DNA from: a virus
IMG/VR virus record: IMGVR_UViG_3300010430_000035
Location: 1-61,329 of that record
Direction: 5' to 3' (one strand)
DNA: 61,329 bases
Part shown: piece by piece, positions 9,077 through 59,586 of the stretch
Layout of the letters: each line of letters begins with the position of its first letter
Numbering within the stretch: position 1 is the first letter of the stretch
The notes under the pieces: model-generated
Database searches by the model: none
Seen by the model: the letters and a program-made list of their open reading frames with translations, nothing else
Told to the model about the DNA's origin: nothing
Position numbers and translations under genes: made by a program

Positions 9077-9129
9077 GCTGGTCCCATTACCAGCACAGTC
9101 ATCTTACCAGTCCAGAGGCTGGACGTCAA
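9077..9129 (-). promoter_or_regulatory. Operator-promoter with +1 hairpin, cassette 9061-7894
   Basis: Minus strand: TTGACG (9129-9124), perfect operator palindrome TCCAGCCTCTGGA, 17-base spacer, TAAGAT (9106-9101), predicted +1 at 9094. Hairpin arms GCTGGT and ACCAGC with loop AATGGG fill 9094-9077. Confidence 0.83.
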
Positions 9130-22574: not shown

Positions 22575-22863
22575 ACGAATGTTTTTGATGGGTGCCGGCG
22601 CGGCGCTTGTGACCCCGCTGATTCCGAAGTTAGCGTCCGACAGCGAGCTGACACTGGAACACATCCAGAGCATTAAGGCTGCGCTCGATGGCGCAGACGT
22701 CGGACTGGACTCCTACTACGGGTTTACGCAGTACATCCAGACGACCAGTGGCGCGAAGATAGTGCGCCAGACCGCCGTTCACACCGACGCCTCCGGCAAG
22801 GTGATTGAGAAGCGTCAGTGGGAGCGCGAAGATTATTTTGAATTATTAAGTCCAAAGGCTTGA
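22567..22863 (+). CDS. Tat-signal-like exported protein, 98 aa
   Basis: The N-terminus NRRMFLMGAGAALVTPLIP has the twin-arginine pattern (RR, then Phe-Leu) and a hydrophobic core. The mature part is small and charged. ATG 22567 overlaps the previous gene. Its stop codon TGA lies inside the -35 of the giant-RNA promoter. Confidence 0.6.
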   Translation: MNRRMFLMGAGAALVTPLIPKLASDSELTLEHIQSIKAALDGADVGLDSYYGFTQYIQTTSGAKIVRQTAVHTDASGKVIEKRQWEREDYFELLSPKA

Positions 22864-22887
22864 CTTCCAGCCACTGGACAGTATAAT
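22860..22887 (+). promoter_or_regulatory. Operator-promoter of the giant RNA
   Basis: TTGACT (22860-22865) and TATAAT (22882-22887), spacer 16, predicted +1 about 22894. The spacer begins with TCCAGCCACTGGA, a perfect 13-base palindrome and the best copy of the shared operator. No RAUGGG hairpin follows; instead a UUCG-capped hairpin starts at 22897. Confidence 0.85.
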
Positions 22888-23420
22888 GCTCCTTAATCGC
22901 TGCTTCGGCAGCGACATTCGTCTCAGACGAAGCGGTGAACCCAACGGGCTTCGGCTCACGCGGGAACAGCAAAACTGATGAGACAGACGCGGCATGGCGT
23001 GGATAGCCGGTAGTGATATCGGTCAAAGGGATACGGGCATACACGTACCCGCCACCAAGGTGGTCAGACCATGCAAGCCTCGCTCAGCGTGCTTACAGGG
23101 CACGGGGTTCGTAAAAGGCGGACCGGACCGGCGAAGCTGCTGCATTGAAAAGGATGAAGGTGGGTAACTCTGGCTGGATTCCGATGGCGTGAGAAGCCAT
23201 AGGTGCGCTCAAAAGCAGCGAACTGGCGATGAGTAAGGGGTAGGACTGGAGGTTCAAGGTTGATAGCCGAGGGCGCCAGACCAGTTGCAAATGCGGAATG
23301 CGGGTAACGCCGTGAGTCGCCAGAACCGTGAGTAGCCGTCAGGTGAAAACAGACGTCGGGTGTTATTTTGCTGGGGCAACCCAGTGAAGGCACAGGCAGG
23401 CGCTCGTCGTAGATATGCTT

Positions 23421-23493
23421 AGCTTAGTAGCTCAGTTGGTAGAGCTCTTGCCTTGAAAGCAAGCAGTCGGTGGTTCGAGTCCACCCTTAGCGA
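23421..23493 (+). tRNA. tRNA-like domain, anticodon UGA, short variable loop, imperfect acceptor
   Basis: D-arm GCTC with GAGC (23430-23445), anticodon stem CTTGC with GCAAG (23447-23463), loop CTTGAAA giving anticodon TGA (serine, codon UCA), variable loop CAGTC, T-arm GGTGG with CCACC around TTCGAGT (23469-23485). The acceptor AGCTTAG with CTTAGCG has an A-G end mismatch and a T-T mismatch. CCA is not encoded. A serine tRNA should have a long variable arm; this one has five bases. Confidence 0.75.
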
Positions 23494-24311
23494 CGAACTA
23501 TTAATTCGTTAATGCGAAAATGGAAAGACGCCTGTCGGTGCCAGAGCAAAAGCGGCATAACGGTCAGCCTACGGGTAATGACCTACCAGACGACCTCCAA
23601 GGTCCGACGGGATTGAGGGGAGCCCAAATACTCGGCGTTAGCTGCGCAGGGTAAGAGGACGAACTTCGAGATGCTCGGTAGAACAGGGCTATCGCCAGCG
23701 CTGTAAAAGAAATTGGCTGTCGTGGAGTACGGACCCTGCCTTGGCGGGGTGGACACGAGATTAACCGAAAGGGTACGGTCTCAAAGGCGGCTCCAGTGTT
23801 GGGTGTAGTCTCAGCCCTTCCACACCTTTACGATTGTTTAGAAAGACCCCGCGAAGCAACTGCACCGTCGTAGGTGTAGGCAAAAGCGCCCAGACGCACC
23901 CAGAAGCCCTTCGGGGCGAAATGCTGGCTCTGTTATGGTCTAAGAGTTCTGGGGTACGACCGCGAGTAGCGTTAAGTAGCGGGTTCTCTCTAAGCGATTG
24001 CATCGGTTTGGGGTTACTGCCGGCGCCTTTTGAAGAGCTCACGAGCAGGCGTCAGTGACAAGAAGCAGGGCGCAGTCGGTTCGCTACCGGCATTTAAGCG
24101 AACAAAGCGGTCTCGGTGGTCTCCTGCTGCCACAAACCCTGATTCAGTTAATGGCACGCTGCGGTGTGGAACGCAGACACACAGCGGCACCTTGCGAGCA
24201 TGGTGACCGTGGCGGAAAGGGCATAGGGGTGCTGACGAGCATCGGAGAGCTATAACCGCAGCAGAGGGTAGCGTCCTGCCGGCGTGCCGCCAAAAAATTC
24301 CAGTAACTTTC

Positions 24312-24338
24312 AAAAAGTGAAAGGTACGGGTACTTTTT
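24312..24338 (+). terminator. Probable terminator of the giant RNA
   Basis: AAAAAGT (24312-24318) and ACTTTTT (24332-24338) form an A/T-rich stem ending in a T-run; just upstream CTTTC and GAAAG offer a competing hairpin. A second hairpin AGGGC with GCCCT follows at 24340-24354. The end of the RNA is therefore approximate. Confidence 0.5.
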
Positions 24339-24405
24339 GAGGGCGTTAAGCCCTTGAGTTAAGGGGTGTTTCGTGTAGTGTTTGGGAACTGCAAAGGAGA
24401 GCGAA

Positions 24406-24516
24406 ATGAAGACCACTGATGTTATTAAAACCGCCGACCCTGTAGACCCGCTGGCAGTAATCGGTCACGAGTGGTGGGGCGACTCAGGGAGTTGCGGCAT
24501 CACGATGTGGGTGTAG
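24406..24516 (+). CDS. 36-codon ORF ending in an amber codon in frame with the fibre-like gene
   Basis: ATG 24406 has a good AAAGGAGAG ribosome site. The frame closes at TAG 24514-24516 and continues without another stop as the gene at 24520. It may be a leader, the broken start of the larger gene, or its real N-terminus made by readthrough. Confidence 0.5.
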   Translation: MKTTDVIKTADPVDPLAVIGHEWWGDSGSCGITMWV

Positions 24517-24519
24517 CCT

Positions 24520-25860
24520 GTGCGGCGTGAAGCAGCAACAGCCATCACCAAGACGGTCCCCGTCGCAACCGGCAGCGAGAATGTAGCCCGCGCCGGCTTT
24601 CCTTCGCCGGTCTTCGGCGTACACCTCGGGGCACGAGCCCAGAAGAACCAAGAGAGCGACCACGTAGGCGTTGGCATCGGTCTGTCGATAGGCGGAAACG
24701 GTCAGCGCCTTTTTACGTTGAGTGCTGAGGATGGTGCGGCTAACTCAGGCACAGCATCACGCAACGACGCGGTCATTGGTGCCGGCGACCAGAGCAACAG
24801 CGCGAACCTCCTGTACGAGTCAGCCCTCACCGGACTGACCGAGGGCGGTATCGCAACCGACTTCAGCAACGTGGGTACGCAGGGCGACTACGTCTCGACC
24901 CTGTTTCAGGAAGGTGTAGCCCAAGCCGAGCTGGTGGATGCCACCATCAACGGCACCGGTACCACCGACATCACCACCACATTCCAGCCAGACGCCATCG
25001 TGTGCTTTGGCAACCCTTCTGCCATGGGCGGGAGCAGCAACAACGCCAGCATGGCTGTCAGCTTCTACGGCAACAGCAGCTATGCGTCAGTAGCCGCAGC
25101 CGATGAGCACGGAGCAAGCCCAAGCAACAGTGATAGCTACAGCACCAGCACCGCGATGATTGCAGAGCTGGATTACGTGGCATCAACGCCGACACTGCAG
25201 ACCTTCACGGTAGGCAGCATCACCGACACCGGATTCACTTGCACCAAGGTAGCCGGCACTGCCGATGCGTCAGTCACCTTCCTGTGCCTGAAGCTCATGG
25301 GCGGATACAGCCTGAGAGTAGGCTTCGCACCTACGCCAACCTACCTGAGCCCACACCAGAGGCTCGACACGCTGTTCCCTGATAACGAGTATCACGCATC
25401 CGTGTTGTTCGCAGGTGCAACCACTGCACTGGAGACCGTTGAAGATGATATGCGCTTCATGCTGGGGACCGTAGCACCGGACGGCACACAAAGCTGCCTG
25501 TCACTGTCCGCAGAGAGCGGAGTGGCAACACCGAACACGAAGAGCGGTGTGTACAACGACAGGGCGGTCCACCTAATGAATCCTAGCGACAGTGCAGCCA
25601 CTGTATCTGCATCCTTCGAGAGCCACTCGGCGTTTAGCCGTGGGACGGTGCTGACGTTCAGCAGAGCCCGCGACCCGATGCAGCTGGGCTGCCTGTTCAT
25701 TGGTCGTGATAAGACCGGACGGGTAGGCGGTGGGCACGCCGGCACCAAGGTGATGGATGCCCGCACGATAGCCGACAAGTATTCACAGGGAAGACCCAAG
25801 GTGGCGGAGTATGAGTTCCGTCATCGCAATTTCTATCAAGGTGGTGACGACGATGGTTAG
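24520..25860 (+). CDS. Fibre-like or head-decoration virion protein, 446 aa
   Basis: GTG 24520, six bases after the upstream amber codon and in the same frame; it lacks its own ribosome site. The protein consists of about three related beta-rich blocks of 110-130 residues (for example around DITTTFQPDAIVCFG), like beta-sandwich modules seen in phage fibre proteins. No catalytic motif. Receptor or glycan binding is a guess. Confidence 0.6.
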   Translation: MRREAATAITKTVPVATGSENVARAGFPSPVFGVHLGARAQKNQESDHVGVGIGLSIGGNGQRLFTLSAEDGAANSGTASRNDAVIGAGDQSNSANLLYESALTGLTEGGIATDFSNVGTQGDYVSTLFQEGVAQAELVDATINGTGTTDITTTFQPDAIVCFGNPSAMGGSSNNASMAVSFYGNSSYASVAAADEHGASPSNSDSYSTSTAMIAELDYVASTPTLQTFTVGSITDTGFTCTKVAGTADASVTFLCLKLMGGYSLRVGFAPTPTYLSPHQRLDTLFPDNEYHASVLFAGATTALETVEDDMRFMLGTVAPDGTQSCLSLSAESGVATPNTKSGVYNDRAVHLMNPSDSAATVSASFESHSAFSRGTVLTFSRARDPMQLGCLFIGRDKTGRVGGGHAGTKVMDARTIADKYSQGRPKVAEYEFRHRNFYQGGDDDG

Positions 25861-46416: not shown

Positions 46417-49400
46417 ATGGCAGACAATTACGACTGGCTGACTGACGAAGCGAAAGCTCGCTACGGCATCACCCCCACTGAACCCTCTGTAGACCCGTCC
46501 AGCGCACCTGTAGCGCAGGACGATTATTCGTCGTGGCTGCCCGAAGAGGCGCGTTCTAAATACGGCATTGAGCCCGTCAGCTTTGTCGATGAGGGGCTTC
46601 TCGAGCAAGCGAAGACCGACGCCAAGCAGGCGGTTGAGGAGGACGAGCCAAGCATCCTGAGTAAGGCGGAAGACTGGTCTGTCAACGCCAGCAAGCTGTT
46701 TACCGAAAGCGCCTCGCACCTGACCGGCAATCTCATGTCGTGGACGGACCTCTACAACCGAGACCTGTTGACGCCGGTGGGCAAGCAGCAGGAGTGGCTC
46801 ACCGAGAAGTTCTACAACCTGAATGACGCCATGAATCTGGGTGGCGTCGTCTGGGAGGGTGGCGACGAAGGCTTCCGGTATGTGCCGCAGGAAGAGTGGG
46901 ACACGAAGAAGGAGCGGATGCGCACCGGCAACGTCGTTCGGGATATTGCCAAGTCGCTGAAAGAGTTTAAGTTTCAGGACTCCTCCAAGGTAGACATTGA
47001 GGACATCAAGGATAGCGCGAAAGAGGGCGAGTACGGCAAGGTAGCCAAGGACACTGGCAACTGGATGGCGCAAACTAACGTCGAGTCATTGCCGCACATG
47101 GCGGTTGCGATTGCCTCGCTTCCAGCTTACGCGCTCGGGCTGTCCGACAAGATGGGGCAGGACCGTGCTGCCGCCATGGGCGAGGAGCACACGTTCTGGC
47201 ACAACCTGCAGGCACTGCCGTTCGCAGTAGGTGCAGCATGGTTCGAGCGCTTTGGCGCAGAGAAGGTCTTTGGTGCAGGCAAGGAAGCCGCAGAGGAAGC
47301 CGCCAAGCAACTGACCAAGGACGTCATCGAGAAAAAGGGTACCGAGATTCTCTGGCTGGCTACCAAGGAGGTGGCTAAGGCAGGGCGCGACGAAGCGCTG
47401 ACCGAGTTCGTGCAGGAGGGCTTCTTCGAGTATCTGGGCGAGAAAGCCTTTACCGGACAGGACCTAGACGTCGGTGACATGGTGGAGCGAGGCGCATGGG
47501 GTGCGCTGGCTGGTGGCGCCGGTGGCGCGGTGCTTGGTGGCGGTGCTGCTGGCACACGCATGGCAACGCTGAACAGCCAGAGCAACAAGGCTCGTATGAA
47601 CGCAATGCGCCACGCCCACAGGGCGAAAAAGGCGGTTGACGATGCCGGCTTGCACTCGCTGGTGGATAGCGTGACAGCCCAGCTTGATGCGAACGAGTTG
47701 GACCCGTTTACCGCCCAGACGCTAATGCAGTATGTGGAGGGGAACGCGCAGGAAATCGTTGAGGCGTCGCCCGCCATTATGGAAGCCACCGGCATTGCCA
47801 AGGCGGTCGTCGATGGCGGCTTGGACCCGCAGTCTGCCACCGAGGCGGTTGAGGCGTTAAAGGCTGGCATGAGCCAGACCTCCGCGCAGCTGGTGGATGC
47901 GGTGTACGCAATGAATCTGGGCAGCGCCGCTACGGCTGCCCAGACCGCAGCCCAAGAGGAGGAAGCTGTTGAGGCAGAGGAAGCGGAGACCGGTCCGAAG
48001 ACCCGTGTACTGGAGGGCACCGTCGCAGCACGAGACGGTACCGAAGGTGAAGCGGTCACGATTTATGATGCTGATGGCAACCCGCTGCAGGCGACTGTAG
48101 AGGCGGTCAGCGAACAGGGCACCATTGCCGTCACCATGGAGGACGGCACCCGAGAGCTGCTGGATGTTGGTGACTACTCCGCTAACGATGTGCAGAGCTC
48201 AGCCTACCCGCTGGAAGCCGTGGAGGTGGAGGGCGTTGAGACCGTTGGTGAGCTGTCCGATGACCAGCTCACCGCCGCTGTGCAGAGTGTCGAGAAGCAG
48301 GTGGCAGATATCGCGGACGGGGCGGTCCCCACGGAATCCGCCGCAAAGCGCCGGCAACTGGCTGCCCTGAAGAACGAGCAGGCACGCCGCACCGGCGGCA
48401 CCGATGTAGAGGCGGGAGCCGCCACCGCAACGATTGACCAGCTGCTGGAGGGCAAGACGCCCGCACAGGCGCGTGACGCCATTGAGTCCGCCCTTGATGA
48501 GAATGCCCGCGAAATCGACGCCTACAGGCAGCGAGAGGGCTCTCTGCCGCCCGACGACCATGCGCTGATAGAAAGGCGTGACGACCTGCTGAACGCCTAT
48601 GACGAGGCAGCAGCGGCATCTGAGCGCAACGAAGAGCTGATGAGTCGCCGGTCGAACCCGACCACCCGCACCACCAATCCGCAGCAGCAGCCCAAAGAGA
48701 AGGGCGAGACGGCGACTGCCAAGGTGGGCATGACGGTAGCCACCGACCGCATTGAGGACATTAAGGAGCTGCTGGACGAGGCGCGTGCTGGCAACACAGA
48801 GGCGGCTGAGGAGATTCGGGAGATTAGCCGAGCTGCTCTGGATGAGGCGCTGGAGGGCATGGATGTTGACACTCGCACACCCTCGTCAACCGGCTTGTAC
48901 TTTGGCGACATCGAGCCTTCCATTGGTACGCAGATTGACTTCGAGGAGAAGGACCACCACAAGGTTGTGGTGGCTCTCGTCGAGGTTGCGCGTGACTTCC
49001 AGCAGGAGCAAATTCATGTTCGCCAGCCGGCGGAAGAAGGAACCGATGTCGGTCACGAGTACGGCGACGGCAGCTTCAATACACTGACTTACAACATTGA
49101 GCTGACTGCGGATATGTCGCAGGCGGATATTCAGGCGGCGCTGAAGGAGTCCGGTCTCGCCGGCGGCACCGTAACAGATGGTAATATAGAGGCGTACTAC
49201 GTCGGAGATTTCGATGAGCAAAGCATCACAGACTTCAAGGCAGGCATCGCCCGCCTCACCCAATCCCTTGGCAGCAGCGCGGGACGAATTGAACAAACAA
49301 CTGAGCGACTCTGGATTTACGGTGAAGGCGCAGGCGCCATCCCGTATGACCAAGCCGGTCGCCCAATTCAGCGGGCAGTCAGGTACACATACTCCAAGGC

Positions 49401-52400
49401 GCCAGCCCTCGACCCCGACGCAGAAATAACCCTCGACACCCGTGTTGACGTAGACCCCGTCACCACGCTCGCCGGCGACATCTATCAGGGCGAGCAACCA
49501 GAGGGCACGGACCCTCTGCTTCACGAAACTATCGACAAGTACCCGCTCGACGAGAACGGATTACCGACAGACCCCGAGCGCCGCGTGCTTCACGAAAGCA
49601 TTGTCAGCGCAGTGCTGATGGGCGCCACTCCGGTGGTGGGGCGCAAGCCTGTTGCCTACTTGATGCTGGGTGGTTCGGCGTCTGGTAAGACGACCATCAT
49701 CAACGCACTCAAGGCGGTGGGCGCCATCCCTCGTGACGGCGTGGTCCACATCGACCCAGACCGAGTGAAGACCGGTTATGACTCTGACCGCGATGAGTTC
49801 AGTAACGATGACGATATTGGCTACGACGGTCTTCCTGAATACTGGGAGGTGTATGACGCCGGTGACTCGCGGGCAGCTTCGGTGGTACACGAAGAGTCCA
49901 GTCACCTGAAGAAGCAGCTGACGGACATTGCAACAGACCCCGCCGGTCTGCATTCAGACATCCTGCTGGATGGCACCCTATCGAATCTGGACTCTGCCAC
50001 CAAGCTCATTAGGAAGCTCAAGGAGCGCGGTTATGAGGTGAAGCTCTACGGAGCCACCGTGAGCGCAGAGACCGCGGTTCGCCGCATCCTCGAGCGTGGC
50101 AAGAAGTCTGGTCGCTTCGTACCAATGAAGCACGCATTGGGCTCCCATCAGGGTTCGTCGAAGGTGTTCGACTCCGTGGCGCCCTTGGTGGATGAAGCGT
50201 GGCTGTTTGATACGGAGGTGGCGAAAGTCGGAGATGGCACGAGCGTTCCTTACGTCGTAGCGAGCAAGCTGGGCACTGAGGAGCGGCTACAAATTGACGA
50301 CAAGGAAGTGTATGATATCTTCCTCGGAAAGGTACGATTAGATGCAAAATCAAAAACACTCAGAGAAATCACAGCCAGCCAAGGGCGTGACCCCGAGAGC
50401 CATCGCATCCCGAAGCGCGAGCCCACTGGTTCGCAGAGCAATCAAGGCGAGCGAGGCACAGGACCTCGGACGCCGCTCGAAACCCAAGGCTACACCCGAC
50501 CGTCCATAAGGCGGGGCAACCAGACCCAACTCCATAGCAGGGGTGCAGAGCCAGCCGTCGACCCAGACGGCATGACTGTAGACGAGGTCACCAAAGCCAT
50601 CTCAGGCATCATTATGGGTATCGGCGGAGCGGTCGATATTCGCGTCGTGCAGTCCGAGTCTCAGGTTCCTGACAGCGCGACAGCTGGACGCTTTGAAGGC
50701 GTATGGGAGACGGGCACCAGCACGGTCTATCTGGTAGCCAATTCTCTCTCTGGTCCTCGCCGTGCCATCGAGGTGGCGACCCACGAGGCGCTCGGGCACC
50801 TTGCCATGGAGCGTATCCCTGAGTTCAAGAAAGCCCTTGATTCCACAAAGAACCTGATTAAGCAGGTCATGGACGACATGACGCCGGAGGAGGCAGAAGC
50901 CTATGAGGCGGCGCGTCAGCGGGCGAATGCTGCACAGAAGGCTTACGAGGACTTCATTAACGAGAACGGTCGTCCGCCCAGAGCCGACAGCTCCATCGTC
51001 AAAGAGCTGACCGCAGCAGAGCGGGCGTTCAGTAAGCTGGCGCTGACCCAGATTGCCGGCAGCGGCAAGGCTGGCAACAAGGGTTTCCGTCAGGCGCTGG
51101 CACAGATTGCTGCCCGCCCAGACTTCCACCACATGAGCGAGACCGTTCAGGCGAAAGAAGTTATTGCCACCATGGCAGAGATGCGCCTGCGCAACGGCAT
51201 CATGGGGCGCGTGAAGGCGTCGCTCAACAAGCTGCTGAATCGCCTTGGCGTCACCGAAGACTTCAATGAAGAGACGATTGTCAGTCTGATTCAGGCTGCG
51301 GCGGTAGACCTGCAGGCGGCGTCAAACGCGGTGCGGGCAATGCAAAGCGCTGACGGCTACAGCGTGCTTACCCCTGTTTCGTCCGTGGTGGACATTCTCG
51401 CTGACACTGCGTGGACTCCTATGCCGGAGGACACGAGGGCAAGGCTGGCGGAGGAGGCTCAGCGCCTCGAGTCCAGAATGCCACTGCCGGAGGGTGCCGA
51501 GGAGCGCCTTGATGCCATTCGCCGCCGTCTGGCTGCCGGTGATGTAAGCCGCGTAATGGCAGCTGTTACGAACACCCGAGCGCAGCTGGAAGACAGCGAG
51601 GACTCGGTCGAAGAGTCTCCGCTGTTCTCGCGGCTTGAGGGCGAGCGGAGAGAGGACCGGCGCAGCCCCCATGATGTGGTGGGCGGGGCGCTTTACTCAA
51701 GATTTATCTCGCCAAGCGCAACACACCTGACCGCCTCGGAGGTGGAAGCGGCGCTCGAGCGTAAGGTGCAGTCGGCAGCGACCGGCGAGTACCGGAGCTA
51801 CTTCGGCTTTATGACAGACGGCGATGTGTCGATTCTGGTAAACCCAACCATGTCAGAGCTGCGTCGCATGAGGGAGACCTCAGAGTATGGCGAGCTTCGC
51901 TACTACCAAGAGCCAAGCACTGGCGACTACTGGTTCTGGGACGCGGAGAATGCGTGGCACAACCCCGTCATCATTGGCATGGTGCTGACTGACGACCGCT
52001 ACTCACACCTGTCAGACGAGATTTCAGGACCTTATGTGTTTGATGGCGGCATAGAGGTGACAGGGATGCTTCGTGACGCATGGAACGAGGCGAGCGACAA
52101 TATCATCTACGACATCAATTACGACGGCGAGATTCTGGTCGACGCCACTGCCGGCGACCCCTTTACGTTGGACTACCAGCCGGCGACCGAAACGGCGGAA
52201 GAAGTTGCCGCACGATTCAAGACGCCTGCGCCCCGTAACTACTCGTACAGCCGCGATATTACGCAGAGTGAGATGGATGAAGCGATACTGGCAGAAGCGA
52301 AGAAGCGCGGACTGAAGCTGCCGAAGCCGATGCTGCCCGAGCGCCAGCAAGCCATCAAAGAGAACGACCGGTATTACTGGGACGACTACGTGATTATGGA

Positions 52401-55400
52401 TGGCACGTACTACGAGGAGGAAGACTGGCGCGACTTCCGAAGAGAGAATGAGGACCTCTCTCGTGAGCTGTTCCCAGAGTGGTGGCAGGACTTCGATGAG
52501 CGGTGGAATGCTCGTCACAATCAGTTCAAACCTAACCCAGACTCCAAGCTCTACAGCCGTTTTGTTAGCCCGAGTGTGGAAGCAGACCTTACTGTCAACT
52601 CTGTGAACCGAGCAATCAGGGAGCGCTTCCCTGACGTTGCCGAGAGGTTTGATAGCACCAGCGAGATGGACAGGGTTTTTCGTGGGCTTGGTTACGGCTA
52701 CATGAGTGAGCAGGACCCTGTCTCGGTAATGGTGAACCCAACCAAGGGCGAGCTCATCCGGTATCTCGAGACCTCTGATTCAGGGGAGCTGCGCTGGTAT
52801 CAGGAGCCACAGACAGGTGAATTTTGGTTCTGGGACGCGAACCGCTCGTGGCACGGCATGGTGCTGGCGGGCATGGCGCTGAACAACCCTAGCAAATACA
52901 GCGAGATGAGCGAGTCGTTCGAGGTCGAGGAGGACCGCCCATACGTCAGCTTCCGCAAGGACACAGAGGCATACCGCGAGTGGATGAACGCCTCTGACAA
53001 CATTATTCGTCAACGCAACACGGACCTCGATGGTCCGGAGTTGGTGCTGGGCTTTAGAGACACCCATCGGTACAGGTTCCCAGACGGCGGCACGGCGGGC
53101 TTCAAGAAGCCTGCGCCCCGCGACTACTCGTACAGCCGCATGGCGCAGGACTCTGAGCTGCTTCAGAAAGCTCGGGATGAGGGCAGGGCACTGCCCGCAC
53201 CCATGAGCCAGACGCGCCAGAAAGCTATTGAAGAGAATGACCAGTATTACTGGGACGACTATAAAATCGTCGACGGCATGTACTACGAGGAGGAAGACTG
53301 GGAGGCGTTTAAGGACGCTAACGAGGACCTATGGAAAGAGCCGGAGCAGCCCAAGTCTCCGATGGCTGAGCGGTTCCGCTTAATGGAACTGCAGCGCAAT
53401 CGGCGCTCTGGTGCCGACTACAAGCCCAAGGCTGGGCACCGCTTCTCTCCATACGATTACGAACAGTTCCGCGAGATGAAGGGCTCGCAGCCGTGGACTA
53501 AGGAGCTCGTGGAGAAGTACCTCGGTCCGGATGCCAAGCCGGCAGAGATTGCGGATATGACTCGCGTGTACGACGCGGAGTTCATCGAGAAGCTGTCACC
53601 AACACCGCTGTCAGAAGATGAGGTGGTGCAGTTCGAGGGCTTCAACTACAGTCGAGCTCAGGTAGCCAGCCTGCCCAACGGCACGCCGGTCCTGAAGAAC
53701 CCCTCACGCGAAGAGCTGCGCTTCATGCTGCAGATGGTGGAGGGCACTGTGCGCAAGGGTGAGCCCAGCGTGCGCTTTGCCGTGGACAATGACGGTAATT
53801 TCCACTTCTTCGATTCTGCCTACAGCCACAGAGAGATGGCTGCGGTAGTCGAGGACCCCAATGCCTTCATGCGCCCCGACCCGAAGAAGAAGCCGATTCC
53901 ATCTGGTCGCGGAAAACCCTACGAGGAGTTCAACCGCCAGTTGTTCTATATGCGCCGTAACAGCGGCACCCGTGCGGCGATGGAGAAGTTCGTCACGCTC
54001 GACGACCTGAAGAACGACAATGTACTGGAGAACACCAAGTCTGGTCTTGAGTACGCCCCAAACCTGAAGGCAGCGGAATCCGCCGCATCACCGACGCCGG
54101 CGTACAAGACGCCAGCACCGCGAGACTACCGGTTCAGTCGCCCGACCGTCAGCACGGTCGATGAGTTTGTCGACACCACCATGACCCAGCTGAACCGGAC
54201 CTCTCGCACGCTCGCCGGCAAGGTGGACGCGACAGGTCAGAAGGGCAAGTTCCGTGCGCTGGTTCGCATGAAGGGCGACAAGGCAGCCAAGTTGGCGGAC
54301 GCCAATATGAAGCGGGTGCTGCGCAAGCTGTGGAGCGACCGCGACAAACAGTTCACCGGACCGGATGAGCTGCTGGCGTATTTCGATGAGATTGCCGCAG
54401 AGGTCAGTAGAGGCATCCTGAAGGACGGTCACCTGTTGCGCGAGTCAGAGGGCAAGGCGGAGTATCGCTACGCAGGGGTGGACGAGATTCCGCAGATTCG
54501 TGCCACGCTCGCCGGCACGGTGTTGACGATGATGGACGACCCAGAGGTTGACCCAGTCGACACCGCGGCTTACCTGAAGTGGACCATGGACCATGACGGG
54601 CACATCTATGCGGACGGCGTTGGCAAGACGTCGACCGCGCTAGCCAGCTGGATTCTGGCACGCGAAGGAATTGCTCCGCCCAACCTGCCGTACTTCAAGG
54701 ACTATATTGCCAAGGTGGATGAGGCGAAGAGTGGTCCGGCGCCGTATCCGGAGTTCCGGAGCTACTACAAGTCGCTGGTCCGCAGCCGCAACTACAGCAA
54801 ACAGAACTACTACGATTTTGATGCCCCCGAGACGGCGATTGCGGACGCAGAGTATTCTCGTGATGAGCTGACCGAGAGCCCTTCTTTTATGCAGTGGTTT
54901 GAAGGCTCAAAGATTGCAGACGGCTACGGAAGACCGATTGTTTTGTATCGGGGCTCCAAGGGCGGCTCGAACAACCCCAACTCTCTGGGGGTGAAGACGT
55001 TTACCTCTGGCTTCGGTACGGCGACACAGTATGCCGAGAACGATATAGCGACGTACCTGCAAGAGTGGCGCGGGGACCGTGACCCGAAAATAGGTGCCTA
55101 TGCGGTCAACGTCCAGAACCCCTTTGCGCCAACTGAAGAGGACATCTCCGCGGTGCCGATACCGGTTCGCCGGCACGTAGGGCTAGATGACCTAGAGGCG
55201 GCTTTGGCGTCGGGCGAGGAGCTGGGCTCGGACAGGGTTGTTGCTCGCAGGATAGAAAGGAAATTTTATAAACAGTATCTGCGCGAGATAGCTGACTACT
55301 GGACCGACGTAATGATTAAGCTCAGCCCAGCGGAGCCGACGGTCGCTGAGAAACGCCGAGCGCGTCTGCTGGTGCATAGGGGTGTCAGCGACAAGCCCTT

Positions 55401-58400
55401 TGTCGCACTCCCGCCCAGTCCTTATGTCGCGGTGTTTATTTTTGATTCCGAGCTGGTCGCCAAGGCGGCGCAGATTCTTGGTTATGACGGCGCGGTTTAT
55501 CACGACCAAGGCGGTTGGCGCTCGCACGGCGATGCGACGGGTCTGTTCCATGAGGTCCGCCCGTTCGACTCAAGCCAGATTATGCGCATCGACGATGCGG
55601 GCAAGGGCTACTACGGTGAAGAGCTCGACAACTACCAGAAGCCGATGCGGTACAGCCGCGGCGTTATCAGTGGTTGGGGCAACGACAATGCGACCGGCGA
55701 CCCAGCGGAGGATGCCGCATGGATGGAGCAGGTCCGTGCCTCGAAGCAGCAGCAGCAGGATGATGCGGCTCGTCTGAAGCGCCTTCGTCAGGAGGGTCGC
55801 AGCGGCGTCCCCATCAGCACCAACCACATTGCCGAAAGCTCCGGCATGGGGCGCGGGCATCACTGGGTAGTGGACCGCTCCGGCACAACTCACGGCTACA
55901 TCGTCGAAGACCCCACCACGCAGGGCTATATTGCTTACAGACTTGACGGTACAGAGATGGCTCGTGGCTCAAGCATGGAGGGCGTCGGAGACGGGTTTAC
56001 AACCAACTCGCAGTACGTGGACCCTCGCAGCGAGCCTCGCGCTCCCATGGAGCTGCCGAAGATGTACGACTCCATGTATTCACGCCCGAGCTACAAGGAA
56101 GCCTACTCGATGTTCTGGGAGGACAACCCGAACTTCAAGAAGTGGTTCAAGGGCTCCAAGGCGGTCAGCGATGGCGGCACGCCAATCCGGCTGTATCGCG
56201 GCGCATCCGGTCTCGAGGGTCTTGGTAGGGGCGAGGACGGCGCAGGCATCAGCCTGACCGACAGCCCCACTGCAGCGGCAACCTATGCGGTGCAGGATAT
56301 GCCCAACCCGTTCAACCCTTCACACTCGGTGGGGAATCACCGCACCGGCGCATGGTATGCGCGTGTCACGAAGCCGCTGGTCCTCACTAAGCGGATGTTC
56401 TACAACAAGGACAGCTTTATCGCCGCGGTGACCAAGCAGGCTGACAGTAAGAAGGTGGCGCGTCAGGTGATGGCTGCCCTTAACTGGAGGTCGTTGGGTG
56501 AGCGTGGCGATGACTTGATTAGCAACCAGTCGTATGGCTTTAGCATTATCAATATGCCGGTCGTTGTGGCGGCACTGAAGGAGCTGGGCTTTGACGGAGT
56601 GAGGCTGCTGTCGACACCAACAACGGTTAGCGAGCCGAGCAAAATGGTTGCGGTGCGCGACATTGCCCAGAAGGAGATGACAGAGCAGTTTGGCAAGACC
56701 AGTTTCCGCGGAGCGTCGGGCGAGCCGGTGATGGAAGAGTGGCGCGTGTTTGAAGAGTCGCAGCTGTCGAGCGCAATCAGCCCGAGCGTAGGCTATCGTG
56801 GCGACAAGGTGTACTCTCGTCCGAGCGCGGACCCAGAGATTGAGTCCATGCTAAAGCGCCTGATGGCGACACCGCAGGAGGACCTGACAGCTCTGGACCG
56901 CATCCGCGAGTATGTGAACCGCCTTGGCGCGTTCAATCTGCTGGGCGTGCGTCAGGGCATTATCGACAGCGCCGCCAGCTGGGAGGCTTGGGAGCGCGGT
57001 CAGTCGATGGACGGCAACCTGCTGGACGCCTCCATCAGTCCGTATAAAGCCATCGCCGCCACGAAGAACCTGAACGGCGTGATGGCTGCCATTATGCTGA
57101 AGGGTGTGCCGGTCTATAAGGACGGCTCGTTCCAGATGGTTCGTGGCAGGAAAGGCATTGCTGAAATCTTCAGTCAGCTGACCGAGAGTCAGTGGGGCAA
57201 CCTGATGGCGGAGTGGGAGCTTTACGCAGCAGCCCGCCGCGCCAACCAGCTGATTAAGCAGAAGAACAAAGACGGCACCAGCCGCGAGAAACTGTTTACC
57301 CAGAAGGACATCGACCGCGCTCTGGCTAACGCGCAGAAGTACAAGCTCGATGACGGCACCCTGCTGTTCGAGAGTGTGTTTGATGAGTGGCGGAGGTTCA
57401 ACCGTCAGGTGCTGCAGATGGCGGCGCAGGCAGGCGTCCTCGACTCAGAGGCTGCGAAGGAGTGGGCGAAGAACGACTACGTCCCGTTCTATCGTGCGGT
57501 GGAAGAGGCGGCTGGCGAAGTGCAAGGACCCAAGGCAGCCGGCACCCGAGCCGGCGTGTCGGATGTCAACGCCAACCAGAAGCGCCTATGGGGCAGCGAG
57601 AAACCGCTCGGCAACATCTTTGAGAACATGATTACCAACGTCGCGTATCTGGTCGATGCCAGCTATCGCAACACCGCCATGCAGCGCGTGGTCGACCTAG
57701 CGGAAGGCTCGGTGATGACCAAGGTGCCGATGGCGGTGCAGGCGCTGAAGGTGTCGGATGACCAGATTGCCCGCGGCATGATGGCGGCAGGAATGCTTCA
57801 CGATAAGAGCGGTCGCAAGGTGACAGACGCGAAGGTTGCGCTGTCCATGGTCCGCGAGATGGGGGCAGACCAGAAGGAATACTGGGTCACCCTGTTCCGC
57901 CGCGTGAAGCCGGTAGGCAAAAACATCGTCAGCGTGCTTGTCGATGGCAAGCCGCAGTATTACGAAGTGAACGACCCGCTGATGTTGCGCACGCTGCAGG
58001 GCATGGGTCCACAGCAGTTCACCGGTGTGATGAAGTGGTTCGTCGGCGGCAAGCGCCTCCTGACAGGGGCGGTGACCATTGAGCCCAGCTTTATGATTGC
58101 CAACTTCCTGCGCGACACCCTGTCGAACTACATTCAGACGGACATGGGCAAGCTGCCGGCGCAGGGTACGCTCGGCGGTTTTGCCGAAGCCATGAAAGAG
58201 GACGAGGATATGCTCGCCCTGATGATGGCTGGCGCGGGCGGTGGTGGTCACTACGACATGAACCCGCGTGGCGTGCGTAAGCTGCTGGCGAAGAAGATGC
58301 CCAAGGCGAAGGTCGAGCCGTTTATGAAGACCATTATCGGGGCGCCGGTGAAGGGCTCGCTGTCGCTGCTCGAGGCATACCGCAAGATTGGTTCGGCGTC

Positions 58401-59586
58401 GGAGCAAGCCAACCGCATCGCCGTATATCGGCGGGTGCTGGAGAAAGGTGGCACCGTAGCAGAAGCCGCCTATCAGGCACGAGACGTTCTGAACTTCACC
58501 CGACAGGGCGACTATGGCGCCATGATGACGCTGGTCGCTGTGGTGCCGTTCCTGAACGCTCGCATTCAGGGTCTCGACCGATTGCAGCGCGGTGTCAGGC
58601 AGCAGGGCGACATCAACTTTATGGGCGTGGCGATGAAGGGCTTTGTGTATGTGGCAGCCTCTCTGGCTCTCGCATACCACAATGAAGACGAGGAGCGCTA
58701 CCAGAACCTGCCCGACTGGGACAAGGACACGTACTGGCACTTCTTCATTGGCGATGAGCACTACCGGCTGCCGAAGCCGTTCGAGGTGGGCGCCCTGTTC
58801 GGCACCGTGCCCGAGCGGATGTACCGGACCATGACCGGTCAGGACGACATGAAGCTGTTCGCAGAGCGGATTGGCGCAATGTTCTCAGAGACGTTCGCCT
58901 TTAATCCTGTGCCCCAGCTGGTCCGCCCGATTGCCGAGCAGTACATGAACAAGAGCTTCTTCACCGGCAACCCCTTGGTGGGTTATGCGGAACAGCGCCG
59001 GCAGGAGGAGGAGCAGTACAACGCCTTCACCAGCGAGACCGCCATTGCGCTGGCAGACGCCATGCCTGATGCCGCCCCAGCATGGTTGCGGTCACCAATG
59101 CGTCTGGAAGCCGCTGTAAGGGGGTATACGAGCCAGACGGGTATGTACGTCCTCAAGGTAGCCGACGCGATGACCAGAGCCGTCACAGACGCTCCTGCGA
59201 AGCCTGAGAAGGATATTAGGGACTTCCCTGTCCTCGCCCGCTTCTGGCGCTCACAGAACCCTAGAACGAATCGCTGGGTCAGCGAGATGTACGAGATGTC
59301 GAATGAGGTCGATGCGTTGTACAACAGCATTGAGCACTACAAGAAGACGATGCAGGGGGAGAAGGCTCAGGAGCTGCTGGCAGAGGAAGGGGCGAAAGCG
59401 AAGCTCGGTGCTCGCCGCGCCCTCAACGACATGAAGCGCGATATCTCGAAAATCAACAAGAAGATTCAGCAGGTAATGAACGACCGCAGCATGACGGCTG
59501 CCCAGAAGCGGAAGGAGATTGACAAGCTCAACGAGCTTCGTCTGGAGCGGGCGACTCAGGCGGCTGGGTTTGCAGAGTTATTCTAG
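46417..59586 (+). CDS. Polyvalent ejected megaprotein, 4389 aa
   Basis: One frame fills 21 percent of the window. Recognisable parts, in order: a Gly/Ala-rich membrane-like segment near 365-380; a zeta-toxin-like kinase with Walker A GGSASGKTT (1085-1093, Lys1091); a zincin-like helix HEALGH (1456-1461); tandem repeats between 1740 and 2490; a Fic-like motif HIYADGVGK (2729-2737); two ADP-ribosyltransferase-like domains with YRG near 2845 and 3261; and a long helical C-terminus (about 3470-4389) like the large polyvalent-protein domain LPD38. Eleven [YF]SR tripeptides mark the borders between 1737 and 3466. In the polyvalent protein model such giants enter the cell with the DNA and act on host defences. 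Activities are inferred. Confidence 0.85.
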   Translation: MADNYDWLTDEAKARYGITPTEPSVDPSSAPVAQDDYSSWLPEEARSKYGIEPVSFVDEGLLEQAKTDAKQAVEEDEPSILSKAEDWSVNASKLFTESASHLTGNLMSWTDLYNRDLLTPVGKQQEWLTEKFYNLNDAMNLGGVVWEGGDEGFRYVPQEEWDTKKERMRTGNVVRDIAKSLKEFKFQDSSKVDIEDIKDSAKEGEYGKVAKDTGNWMAQTNVESLPHMAVAIASLPAYALGLSDKMGQDRAAAMGEEHTFWHNLQALPFAVGAAWFERFGAEKVFGAGKEAAEEAAKQLTKDVIEKKGTEILWLATKEVAKAGRDEALTEFVQEGFFEYLGEKAFTGQDLDVGDMVERGAWGALAGGAGGAVLGGGAAGTRMATLNSQSNKARMNAMRHAHRAKKAVDDAGLHSLVDSVTAQLDANELDPFTAQTLMQYVEGNAQEIVEASPAIMEATGIAKAVVDGGLDPQSATEAVEALKAGMSQTSAQLVDAVYAMNLGSAATAAQTAAQEEEAVEAEEAETGPKTRVLEGTVAARDGTEGEAVTIYDADGNPLQATVEAVSEQGTIAVTMEDGTRELLDVGDYSANDVQSSAYPLEAVEVEGVETVGELSDDQLTAAVQSVEKQVADIADGAVPTESAAKRRQLAALKNEQARRTGGTDVEAGAATATIDQLLEGKTPAQARDAIESALDENAREIDAYRQREGSLPPDDHALIERRDDLLNAYDEAAAASERNEELMSRRSNPTTRTTNPQQQPKEKGETATAKVGMTVATDRIEDIKELLDEARAGNTEAAEEIREISRAALDEALEGMDVDTRTPSSTGLYFGDIEPSIGTQIDFEEKDHHKVVVALVEVARDFQQEQIHVRQPAEEGTDVGHEYGDGSFNTLTYNIELTADMSQADIQAALKESGLAGGTVTDGNIEAYYVGDFDEQSITDFKAGIARLTQSLGSSAGRIEQTTERLWIYGEGAGAIPYDQAGRPIQRAVRYTYSKAPALDPDAEITLDTRVDVDPVTTLAGDIYQGEQPEGTDPLLHETIDKYPLDENGLPTDPERRVLHESIVSAVLMGATPVVGRKPVAYLMLGGSASGKTTIINALKAVGAIPRDGVVHIDPDRVKTGYDSDRDEFSNDDDIGYDGLPEYWEVYDAGDSRAASVVHEESSHLKKQLTDIATDPAGLHSDILLDGTLSNLDSATKLIRKLKERGYEVKLYGATVSAETAVRRILERGKKSGRFVPMKHALGSHQGSSKVFDSVAPLVDEAWLFDTEVAKVGDGTSVPYVVASKLGTEERLQIDDKEVYDIFLGKVRLDAKSKTLREITASQGRDPESHRIPKREPTGSQSNQGERGTGPRTPLETQGYTRPSIRRGNQTQLHSRGAEPAVDPDGMTVDEVTKAISGIIMGIGGAVDIRVVQSESQVPDSATAGRFEGVWETGTSTVYLVANSLSGPRRAIEVATHEALGHLAMERIPEFKKALDSTKNLIKQVMDDMTPEEAEAYEAARQRANAAQKAYEDFINENGRPPRADSSIVKELTAAERAFSKLALTQIAGSGKAGNKGFRQALAQIAARPDFHHMSETVQAKEVIATMAEMRLRNGIMGRVKASLNKLLNRLGVTEDFNEETIVSLIQAAAVDLQAASNAVRAMQSADGYSVLTPVSSVVDILADTAWTPMPEDTRARLAEEAQRLESRMPLPEGAEERLDAIRRRLAAGDVSRVMAAVTNTRAQLEDSEDSVEESPLFSRLEGERREDRRSPHDVVGGALYSRFISPSATHLTASEVEAALERKVQSAATGEYRSYFGFMTDGDVSILVNPTMSELRRMRETSEYGELRYYQEPSTGDYWFWDAENAWHNPVIIGMVLTDDRYSHLSDEISGPYVFDGGIEVTGMLRDAWNEASDNIIYDINYDGEILVDATAGDPFTLDYQPATETAEEVAARFKTPAPRNYSYSRDITQSEMDEAILAEAKKRGLKLPKPMLPERQQAIKENDRYYWDDYVIMDGTYYEEEDWRDFRRENEDLSRELFPEWWQDFDERWNARHNQFKPNPDSKLYSRFVSPSVEADLTVNSVNRAIRERFPDVAERFDSTSEMDRVFRGLGYGYMSEQDPVSVMVNPTKGELIRYLETSDSGELRWYQEPQTGEFWFWDANRSWHGMVLAGMALNNPSKYSEMSESFEVEEDRPYVSFRKDTEAYREWMNASDNIIRQRNTDLDGPELVLGFRDTHRYRFPDGGTAGFKKPAPRDYSYSRMAQDSELLQKARDEGRALPAPMSQTRQKAIEENDQYYWDDYKIVDGMYYEEEDWEAFKDANEDLWKEPEQPKSPMAERFRLMELQRNRRSGADYKPKAGHRFSPYDYEQFREMKGSQPWTKELVEKYLGPDAKPAEIADMTRVYDAEFIEKLSPTPLSEDEVVQFEGFNYSRAQVASLPNGTPVLKNPSREELRFMLQMVEGTVRKGEPSVRFAVDNDGNFHFFDSAYSHREMAAVVEDPNAFMRPDPKKKPIPSGRGKPYEEFNRQLFYMRRNSGTRAAMEKFVTLDDLKNDNVLENTKSGLEYAPNLKAAESAASPTPAYKTPAPRDYRFSRPTVSTVDEFVDTTMTQLNRTSRTLAGKVDATGQKGKFRALVRMKGDKAAKLADANMKRVLRKLWSDRDKQFTGPDELLAYFDEIAAEVSRGILKDGHLLRESEGKAEYRYAGVDEIPQIRATLAGTVLTMMDDPEVDPVDTAAYLKWTMDHDGHIYADGVGKTSTALASWILAREGIAPPNLPYFKDYIAKVDEAKSGPAPYPEFRSYYKSLVRSRNYSKQNYYDFDAPETAIADAEYSRDELTESPSFMQWFEGSKIADGYGRPIVLYRGSKGGSNNPNSLGVKTFTSGFGTATQYAENDIATYLQEWRGDRDPKIGAYAVNVQNPFAPTEEDISAVPIPVRRHVGLDDLEAALASGEELGSDRVVARRIERKFYKQYLREIADYWTDVMIKLSPAEPTVAEKRRARLLVHRGVSDKPFVALPPSPYVAVFIFDSELVAKAAQILGYDGAVYHDQGGWRSHGDATGLFHEVRPFDSSQIMRIDDAGKGYYGEELDNYQKPMRYSRGVISGWGNDNATGDPAEDAAWMEQVRASKQQQQDDAARLKRLRQEGRSGVPISTNHIAESSGMGRGHHWVVDRSGTTHGYIVEDPTTQGYIAYRLDGTEMARGSSMEGVGDGFTTNSQYVDPRSEPRAPMELPKMYDSMYSRPSYKEAYSMFWEDNPNFKKWFKGSKAVSDGGTPIRLYRGASGLEGLGRGEDGAGISLTDSPTAAATYAVQDMPNPFNPSHSVGNHRTGAWYARVTKPLVLTKRMFYNKDSFIAAVTKQADSKKVARQVMAALNWRSLGERGDDLISNQSYGFSIINMPVVVAALKELGFDGVRLLSTPTTVSEPSKMVAVRDIAQKEMTEQFGKTSFRGASGEPVMEEWRVFEESQLSSAISPSVGYRGDKVYSRPSADPEIESMLKRLMATPQEDLTALDRIREYVNRLGAFNLLGVRQGIIDSAASWEAWERGQSMDGNLLDASISPYKAIAATKNLNGVMAAIMLKGVPVYKDGSFQMVRGRKGIAEIFSQLTESQWGNLMAEWELYAAARRANQLIKQKNKDGTSREKLFTQKDIDRALANAQKYKLDDGTLLFESVFDEWRRFNRQVLQMAAQAGVLDSEAAKEWAKNDYVPFYRAVEEAAGEVQGPKAAGTRAGVSDVNANQKRLWGSEKPLGNIFENMITNVAYLVDASYRNTAMQRVVDLAEGSVMTKVPMAVQALKVSDDQIARGMMAAGMLHDKSGRKVTDAKVALSMVREMGADQKEYWVTLFRRVKPVGKNIVSVLVDGKPQYYEVNDPLMLRTLQGMGPQQFTGVMKWFVGGKRLLTGAVTIEPSFMIANFLRDTLSNYIQTDMGKLPAQGTLGGFAEAMKEDEDMLALMMAGAGGGGHYDMNPRGVRKLLAKKMPKAKVEPFMKTIIGAPVKGSLSLLEAYRKIGSASEQANRIAVYRRVLEKGGTVAEAAYQARDVLNFTRQGDYGAMMTLVAVVPFLNARIQGLDRLQRGVRQQGDINFMGVAMKGFVYVAASLALAYHNEDEERYQNLPDWDKDTYWHFFIGDEHYRLPKPFEVGALFGTVPERMYRTMTGQDDMKLFAERIGAMFSETFAFNPVPQLVRPIAEQYMNKSFFTGNPLVGYAEQRRQEEEQYNAFTSETAIALADAMPDAAPAWLRSPMRLEAAVRGYTSQTGMYVLKVADAMTRAVTDAPAKPEKDIRDFPVLARFWRSQNPRTNRWVSEMYEMSNEVDALYNSIEHYKKTMQGEKAQELLAEEGAKAKLGARRALNDMKRDISKINKKIQQVMNDRSMTAAQKRKEIDKLNELRLERATQAAGFAELF

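Follow-up and report, generated by a model that had tools for sequence, protein, structure and literature searches.

The locus and its promoter

The window, meaning the whole 61,329-nt stretch of viral DNA analysed here, originates from a short-tailed phage of the SU10-like type. A terminase, an SU10-type portal (34% identity to that of Vibrio phage 431E46.1), a major head protein, and an SU10 adaptor are encoded on the contig, and the RNA of interest is located between the terminase and portal genes (Table 1). Like GOLLD RNAs in general, it is therefore encoded in a phage or prophage, as these head and packaging genes indicate.

The original prediction assigned a 1.45-kb giant structured RNA to the largest gene-free stretch of the window, and the lack of genes was confirmed. 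The non-coding run from 22981 to 24481 (1,500 nt) is the longest of the 61-kb window, the runner-up being 600 nt. From about 22830 to 24400, all six reading frames had negative codon-usage scores, with 16 long ORFs as the training set. When the chance ORFs of the stretch were used in a protein-family search, no match of weight was obtained (best E 0.094), and a search of the stretch for internal repeats found none. A match to PhotoRC-I at 22856-22912 (E 0.006; 22.3 versus 45 bits) was rejected as chance agreement at a UUCG hairpin.

Two further observations concern the ORFs of the window. Downstream of the RNA, a short ORF with a good ribosome site (ATG at 24407) ends at 24517, and a 446-aa ORF without a clear ribosome site starts in another frame with GTG at 24520; a frameshift, recoding, or an assembly slip is possible at this junction (24407-24520). 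In addition, a single ORF of 4389 aa (46417-59586) occupies more than one-fifth of the contig.

The predicted promoter of the RNA belongs to a group of about eight related operator-promoters in the window, at 2029(-), 7911(-), 9129(-), 10651(-), 11037(+), 12042(+), 13672(+), and 22860(+); the transcript start was placed from the -10 box. A near-palindromic operator, TCCAGCCAnTGGA, lies between the -35 and -10 boxes of these promoters and points to a phage regulon. The RNA had been described as carrying the strongest copy of the regulon promoter. The phage operator is indeed present, but the strength is surpassed at 2029(-), where a perfect TTGACA-17-TATAAT offers better hexamers than the GOLLD promoter. 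As a separate observation, the 5' leaders at 9088(-), 10609(-), 11080(+), and 13714(+) have in common a hairpin with an AATGGG loop, and a similar one occurs at about 12070(+). Their stems (6 to 7 pairs) differ in sequence yet remain complementary and stand just before the ribosome site, so the leader of several operator-controlled genes is possibly protein binding or regulatory.

Table 1. Features of the RNA locus, in window positions
Feature	Position	Strand	Basis
Predicted promoter, sigma-70 type, TTGACT-16-TATAAT; operator TCCAGCCACTGGA (22866-22878) in spacer	22860-22887	+	Consensus; copies within the window only
Putative transcript start; 5' leader with UUCG and further hairpin loops, preceding the region that aligns with other GOLLDs	22894-22989	+	Sequence, fold
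GOLLD 5' domain	22990-23350	+	Profile of 21 other GOLLD 5' regions; collinear MAFFT alignment
GOLLD conserved 3' domain, including linker insert	23353-23817	+	RF02032 match, pair conservation
tRNA-like domain in GOLLD linker; UGA (Ser) anticodon, 74-nt short-arm body, no CCA encoded	23421-23494	+	ARAGORN; Rfam tRNA, 62.8 bits
GOLLD 3'-terminal signature GGTGTAGTCTCAGCC	23802-23816	+	Motif also ends the GOLLD model and other GOLLD loci
Non-coding tail after GOLLD	23818-24338	+	Without coding signal, homologue, or clear fold signal
Weak terminator-like hairpins TCAAAAAGT/ACTTTTTGA and CCCTTgagttAAGGG	24311-24367	+	Sequence; not above chance

Relationship to the GOLLD family

The Rfam model of GOLLD (RF02032) matched 23353-23817 from end to end (model positions 1 to 416 of 416; 55.9 bits; E 1.9e-13, or 1.7e-15 for a single genome), with the tRNA accommodated as an insert in the linker. 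The score misses the curated Rfam cut-off of 150 bits, which is a curator's choice and no biological feature; other clear GOLLDs, such as L037 (126.5), L057 (149.4), and L256 (139.0), also remain below it. At the gathering score, Rfam found the tRNA alone on the stretch, and GOLLD emerged with an E-value threshold. Of the 89 pairs of the model, 4 are gapped and 75 of the other 85 are kept as standard pairs (27 the same, 8 changed on one side, and 40 changed on both sides), leaving 10 non-standard; these counts come from the printed alignment, which is itself fitted to RF02032.

For an independent test, the 5' regions of 21 linker-tRNA GOLLDs, with the window left out, were aligned and converted to a profile. 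Against both strands of the 61-kb window, the profile gave one match, on the plus strand at 22990-23350 with E 3.3e-7, corresponding to the less conserved upstream region of GOLLDs, which is about 400 nt long. Domain order, spacing, terminal signature, and tRNA position all agree with other GOLLD loci. Judged by these alignments, the window is shown to contain both GOLLD domains, collinear and correctly ordered, with the conserved pairs kept via compensatory changes. We take GOLLD membership to be settled for about 22.9 to 23.8 kb. The GOLLD-like kinship with a tRNA inside, as originally proposed, was thus upheld by the covariance-model match, the compensatory pairs, and the 5' profile, and the tRNA-shaped domain by ARAGORN and the Rfam tRNA model. 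In the same covariance-model search of 22800-24500, ROOL, HEARO, OLE, and group I/II introns gave no match even at E 10.

It had also been suggested that the RNA may form a new class, in which case its resemblance to GOLLD would be due to chance. The score below the gathering cut-off and the default annotation, which finds only a tRNA, would fit such a class, but it can hardly be reconciled with two independent, correctly ordered domain matches, the terminal signature, a linker tRNA at the fixed place of the family, and 40 compensated pairs. We consider it extremely improbable.

The size of the RNA agrees with GOLLD as well. The env-38 GOLLD comprises 420 + 413 nt, that is, 833 nt (PMC12286853), and the corresponding regions of the window measure about 459 nt, counted from the promoter, and 465 nt, tRNA included. 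GOLLD proper is about 830 to 925 nt here, which is a normal size; the description as longer than GOLLD was misleading, since the 1.45 kb counts about 520 nt past the GOLLD end. The reported richness in tetraloop hairpins (UUCG, GNRA, or CUUG; stems of at least 4 pairs) was reproduced, with 7 in the stretch versus 1.03 in dinucleotide shuffles and 0 of 500 shuffles reaching 7. Six of them lie in the GOLLD part, and one lies in the last 520 nt (0.38 expected). The local fold mean z was -1.38 for the GOLLD 3' domain (-1.0 to -1.6 for other GOLLDs). A single structured RNA of 1.45 kb was not supported: the structural signal ends near 23817, and the local fold of 23818-24338 is no better than that of shuffles.

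Compared with RF02032 and the env-38 GOLLD (PMC12286853), the window copy has the same end-to-end 3' domain, 5' domain, linker tRNA, terminal signature, phage origin, and length of about 0.83 to 0.92 kb. It differs in being very diverged (55.9 bits, whereas 32 of 34 loci with an RF02032 match score 126 to 327), in its place amid head-packaging genes, with no tRNA array, and in its 520-nt non-coding tail. A position beside tRNA genes is a frequent but non-defining GOLLD trait; here, the linker tRNA stands alone in 61 kb, and many marine GOLLDs likewise lack a tRNA array. ROOL is also a giant, cage-forming phage RNA often found near tRNAs (PMC12286853), although its model leaves 22800-24500 unmatched.

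Neither the 50 phages with a related terminase nor the 14 control genomes gave a GOLLD match. Searches for close homologues suited to a covariation test, with the 446-aa protein, the portal, and the terminase, and with DNA in phages and plasmids, yielded nothing beyond identical contigs and unrelated hits to tRNAs. On another contig, with a tRNA array (L205:1950-2160), a GOLLD-like 3' end, GGTACGG...AAAG...GGTGTAGTCTCAGCC, was noticed (RF02032 E 0.11), which may be either a relic or a still more diverged GOLLD.

The tail and RNAs downstream of GOLLD

The tail gave zero Rfam matches and zero DNA matches in phages, and only identical contigs among the fetched loci. A coding function was rejected on the codon-usage scores and the lack of a protein-family match of weight. 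The terminator-like end of the original prediction was located in the hairpins at 24311-24367, but these are weak, and the terminator search gave 2 sites versus 2.6 expected by chance. No convincing terminator was found directly after GOLLD that would separate the tail from it.

Two readings of the tail were considered. Firstly, the whole of 22.89 to 24.34 kb may be one functional ornate RNA, a GOLLD whose additional 520 nt or so form a third domain, at the 3' end, that shares in the assembly. The absence of a terminator right after GOLLD and of coding in the tail is consistent with this, as are gene-free stretches of about 430 to 600 nt directly downstream of other GOLLDs (L085, L203, and the marine conserved family described below). 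The whole-length fold z was -2.3 to -2.6 in the tails of L046, L085, and L203, and -1.2 in the window (about -1.0 to -1.2 overall). However, the local fold mean z of the tail was +0.36 and +0.46, neither tetraloop enrichment nor a homologue was found, the tail is no member of the marine RNA, and the solved GOLLD stops at its 3' domain. Thus, a third domain is possible but rather doubtful. Secondly, the tail may be a decayed gene or plain spacer, with which the joint absence of a coding frame, structural excess, and a homologue agrees. Against this, given how densely the phage genome is packed, 520 useless nt would be unusual, and gene-free tails recur behind other GOLLDs; we regard decay or spacer as a real possibility, though short of probable.

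Marine phage contigs contain, immediately after GOLLD or after GOLLD plus a tRNA-Met, a non-coding RNA of about 430 nt that is conserved yet diverse in sequence (L018:942-1390, L046:2273-2704, L025:1503-1929(-), L038, L033, L099, L032, L028, L095, L234, L088, and L216). Its 3' end is an intrinsic terminator. A TGTGG/CCACA hairpin is nearly invariant, and the other helices covary, with both-side changes in 11 of 19 pairs. Compared with Rfam, it gave zero matches above the Rfam cut-off. When its 3' half was turned into a covariance model, two further probable members, L064 and L092, were recovered. The same model misses the tail of the window, which was therefore rejected as a member. In marine phages, then, a recurrent and undescribed non-coding RNA lies directly downstream of GOLLD.

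The linker tRNA and the function of the cage

The tRNA-like domain is placed exactly in the linker that separates the first 3'-domain helix from the remainder. Such a variable linker, sometimes with a tRNA, is characteristic of GOLLD, and the site is the same as in 23 other loci: the tRNA lies at -380 from the terminal signature, within the range of -337 to -417 for 24 GOLLDs including the window. Its D, anticodon, and T arms are intact. In bacteria, tRNA-Ser carries a long variable arm; here, this arm is absent and the variable loop has 5 nt. The acceptor stem, with 5 of 7 pairs and two mismatches, is incomplete for tRNA-Ser. Because the long variable arm is missing and the acceptor stem is broken despite the Ser anticodon, this domain cannot be a normal tRNA-Ser.

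The linker tRNAs were then compared as a class. A set of 84 distinct GOLLD-like loci was picked by the terminal signature with an upstream GTGGA or CTGGA, a few of which may be non-GOLLD; 24 of the 84, the window included, have a linker tRNA detected by ARAGORN, which may overlook more degenerate linkers. The remaining tRNAs of these loci, 288 in number, served as the control. An incomplete acceptor stem was found in 21/24 linker tRNAs versus 59/288 neighbours (p 5e-11), an encoded CCA in 4/24 versus 195/288 (p 1e-6), and an unusual A34 anticodon in 5/24 versus 2/288 (p 3e-5). A Ser or Tyr anticodon on a body of <78 nt occurred in 6/6 versus 0/23 (p 2e-6), and the control also includes some short-bodied Leu anticodons (7/49 Ser/Leu/Tyr). 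These p-values are optimistic, as related loci are counted as independent. In four loci from bacterial MAGs (L255-L258), fetched later by a tRNA-blind pattern, all four linkers contained a tRNA, with an imperfect acceptor in 3/4 and CCA in 0/4; one had a 6-nt anticodon loop and one, with a body of 72 nt, a Leu anticodon. In L259, the body of the linker tRNA measures 77 nt, again with a Leu anticodon. The idea that the acceptor strand is used twice, its TTGC pairing with a conserved GCAA after the tRNA, was rejected (10/24 versus a null mean of 4.4 and maximum of 10); the pairing is attractive in L011, L044, L204, and others and absent in the window.

Thus, the tRNAs of GOLLD linkers seem to be tRNA mimics that take no part in decoding. 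As interior linker tRNAs are systematically unfit for decoding, their shape, and not translation, is probably selected. Phage tRNAs often supplement codon use, and the domain of the window might similarly be a working tRNA-Ser(UGA), freed from the GOLLD transcript by host RNase P for phage translation. Its good tRNA score (62.8 bits) and three intact arms would suit this role, but the 5-nt variable region, the two acceptor mismatches, the absent CCA, and the defects of the class relative to neighbouring tRNAs render it quite unlikely. As reported previously, the mycobacterial counterpart, termed a pseudo-tRNA, also showed no detectable expression as a tRNA (PMC6582537). That GOLLD may contain a tRNA was already known. 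The GOLLD of M. aubagnense, like that of the window, holds a pseudo-tRNA, but it sits in a 32-tRNA cluster, whereas the linker tRNA of the window is the only one of its contig (PMC6582537). What is new here is that linker tRNAs are mostly defective as a class, across 24 linkers; a general quantitative statement of this was absent from the literature searched, although Weinberg et al. 2009 and Morgado et al. 2020 may contain parts.

In general, the locus very probably encodes a strongly diverged GOLLD of about 0.83 to 0.92 kb (22894/22990-23817) in an SU10-like phage, with an operator-controlled promoter, a non-decoding tRNA mimic in the linker, and a cage by homology. The RNA would be made from an operator-promoter in common with other phage genes. 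The cryo-EM structure of the env-38 GOLLD is a homo-14-mer, a hollow RNA cage with the linkers inside, and this 14-mer is known for env-38 only (PMC12286853). By analogy, the RNA of the window may self-assemble into a closed 14-mer cage, with its linkers, and hence up to 14 tRNA-like domains, inside. Judging from the linker tRNA comparison, these domains would be non-decoding tRNA mimics.

Kretsch et al. mention ribosome pull-down with GOLLD and propose that the cage may hold tRNAs or other cargo (PMC12286853). As the likeliest use that we can name, we tentatively suggest that the mimic may present or sequester a tRNA-shaped bait for a host tRNA-binding factor, such as the ribosome or a tRNA-targeting enzyme, in the lytic phase. 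A wider and distinctly more speculative idea, which we consider unlikely as a whole, is that GOLLD linkers are dedicated non-decoding tRNA mimics caged to lure a host factor that binds or cleaves tRNA, and that GOLLD is often trailed by a fast-changing partner non-coding RNA, with the window as an extreme case with a 520-nt partner domain. Here, GOLLD is extended to a lineage overlooked by default Rfam annotation, and its defective linker tRNAs provide a testable handle on what GOLLD cages are for.
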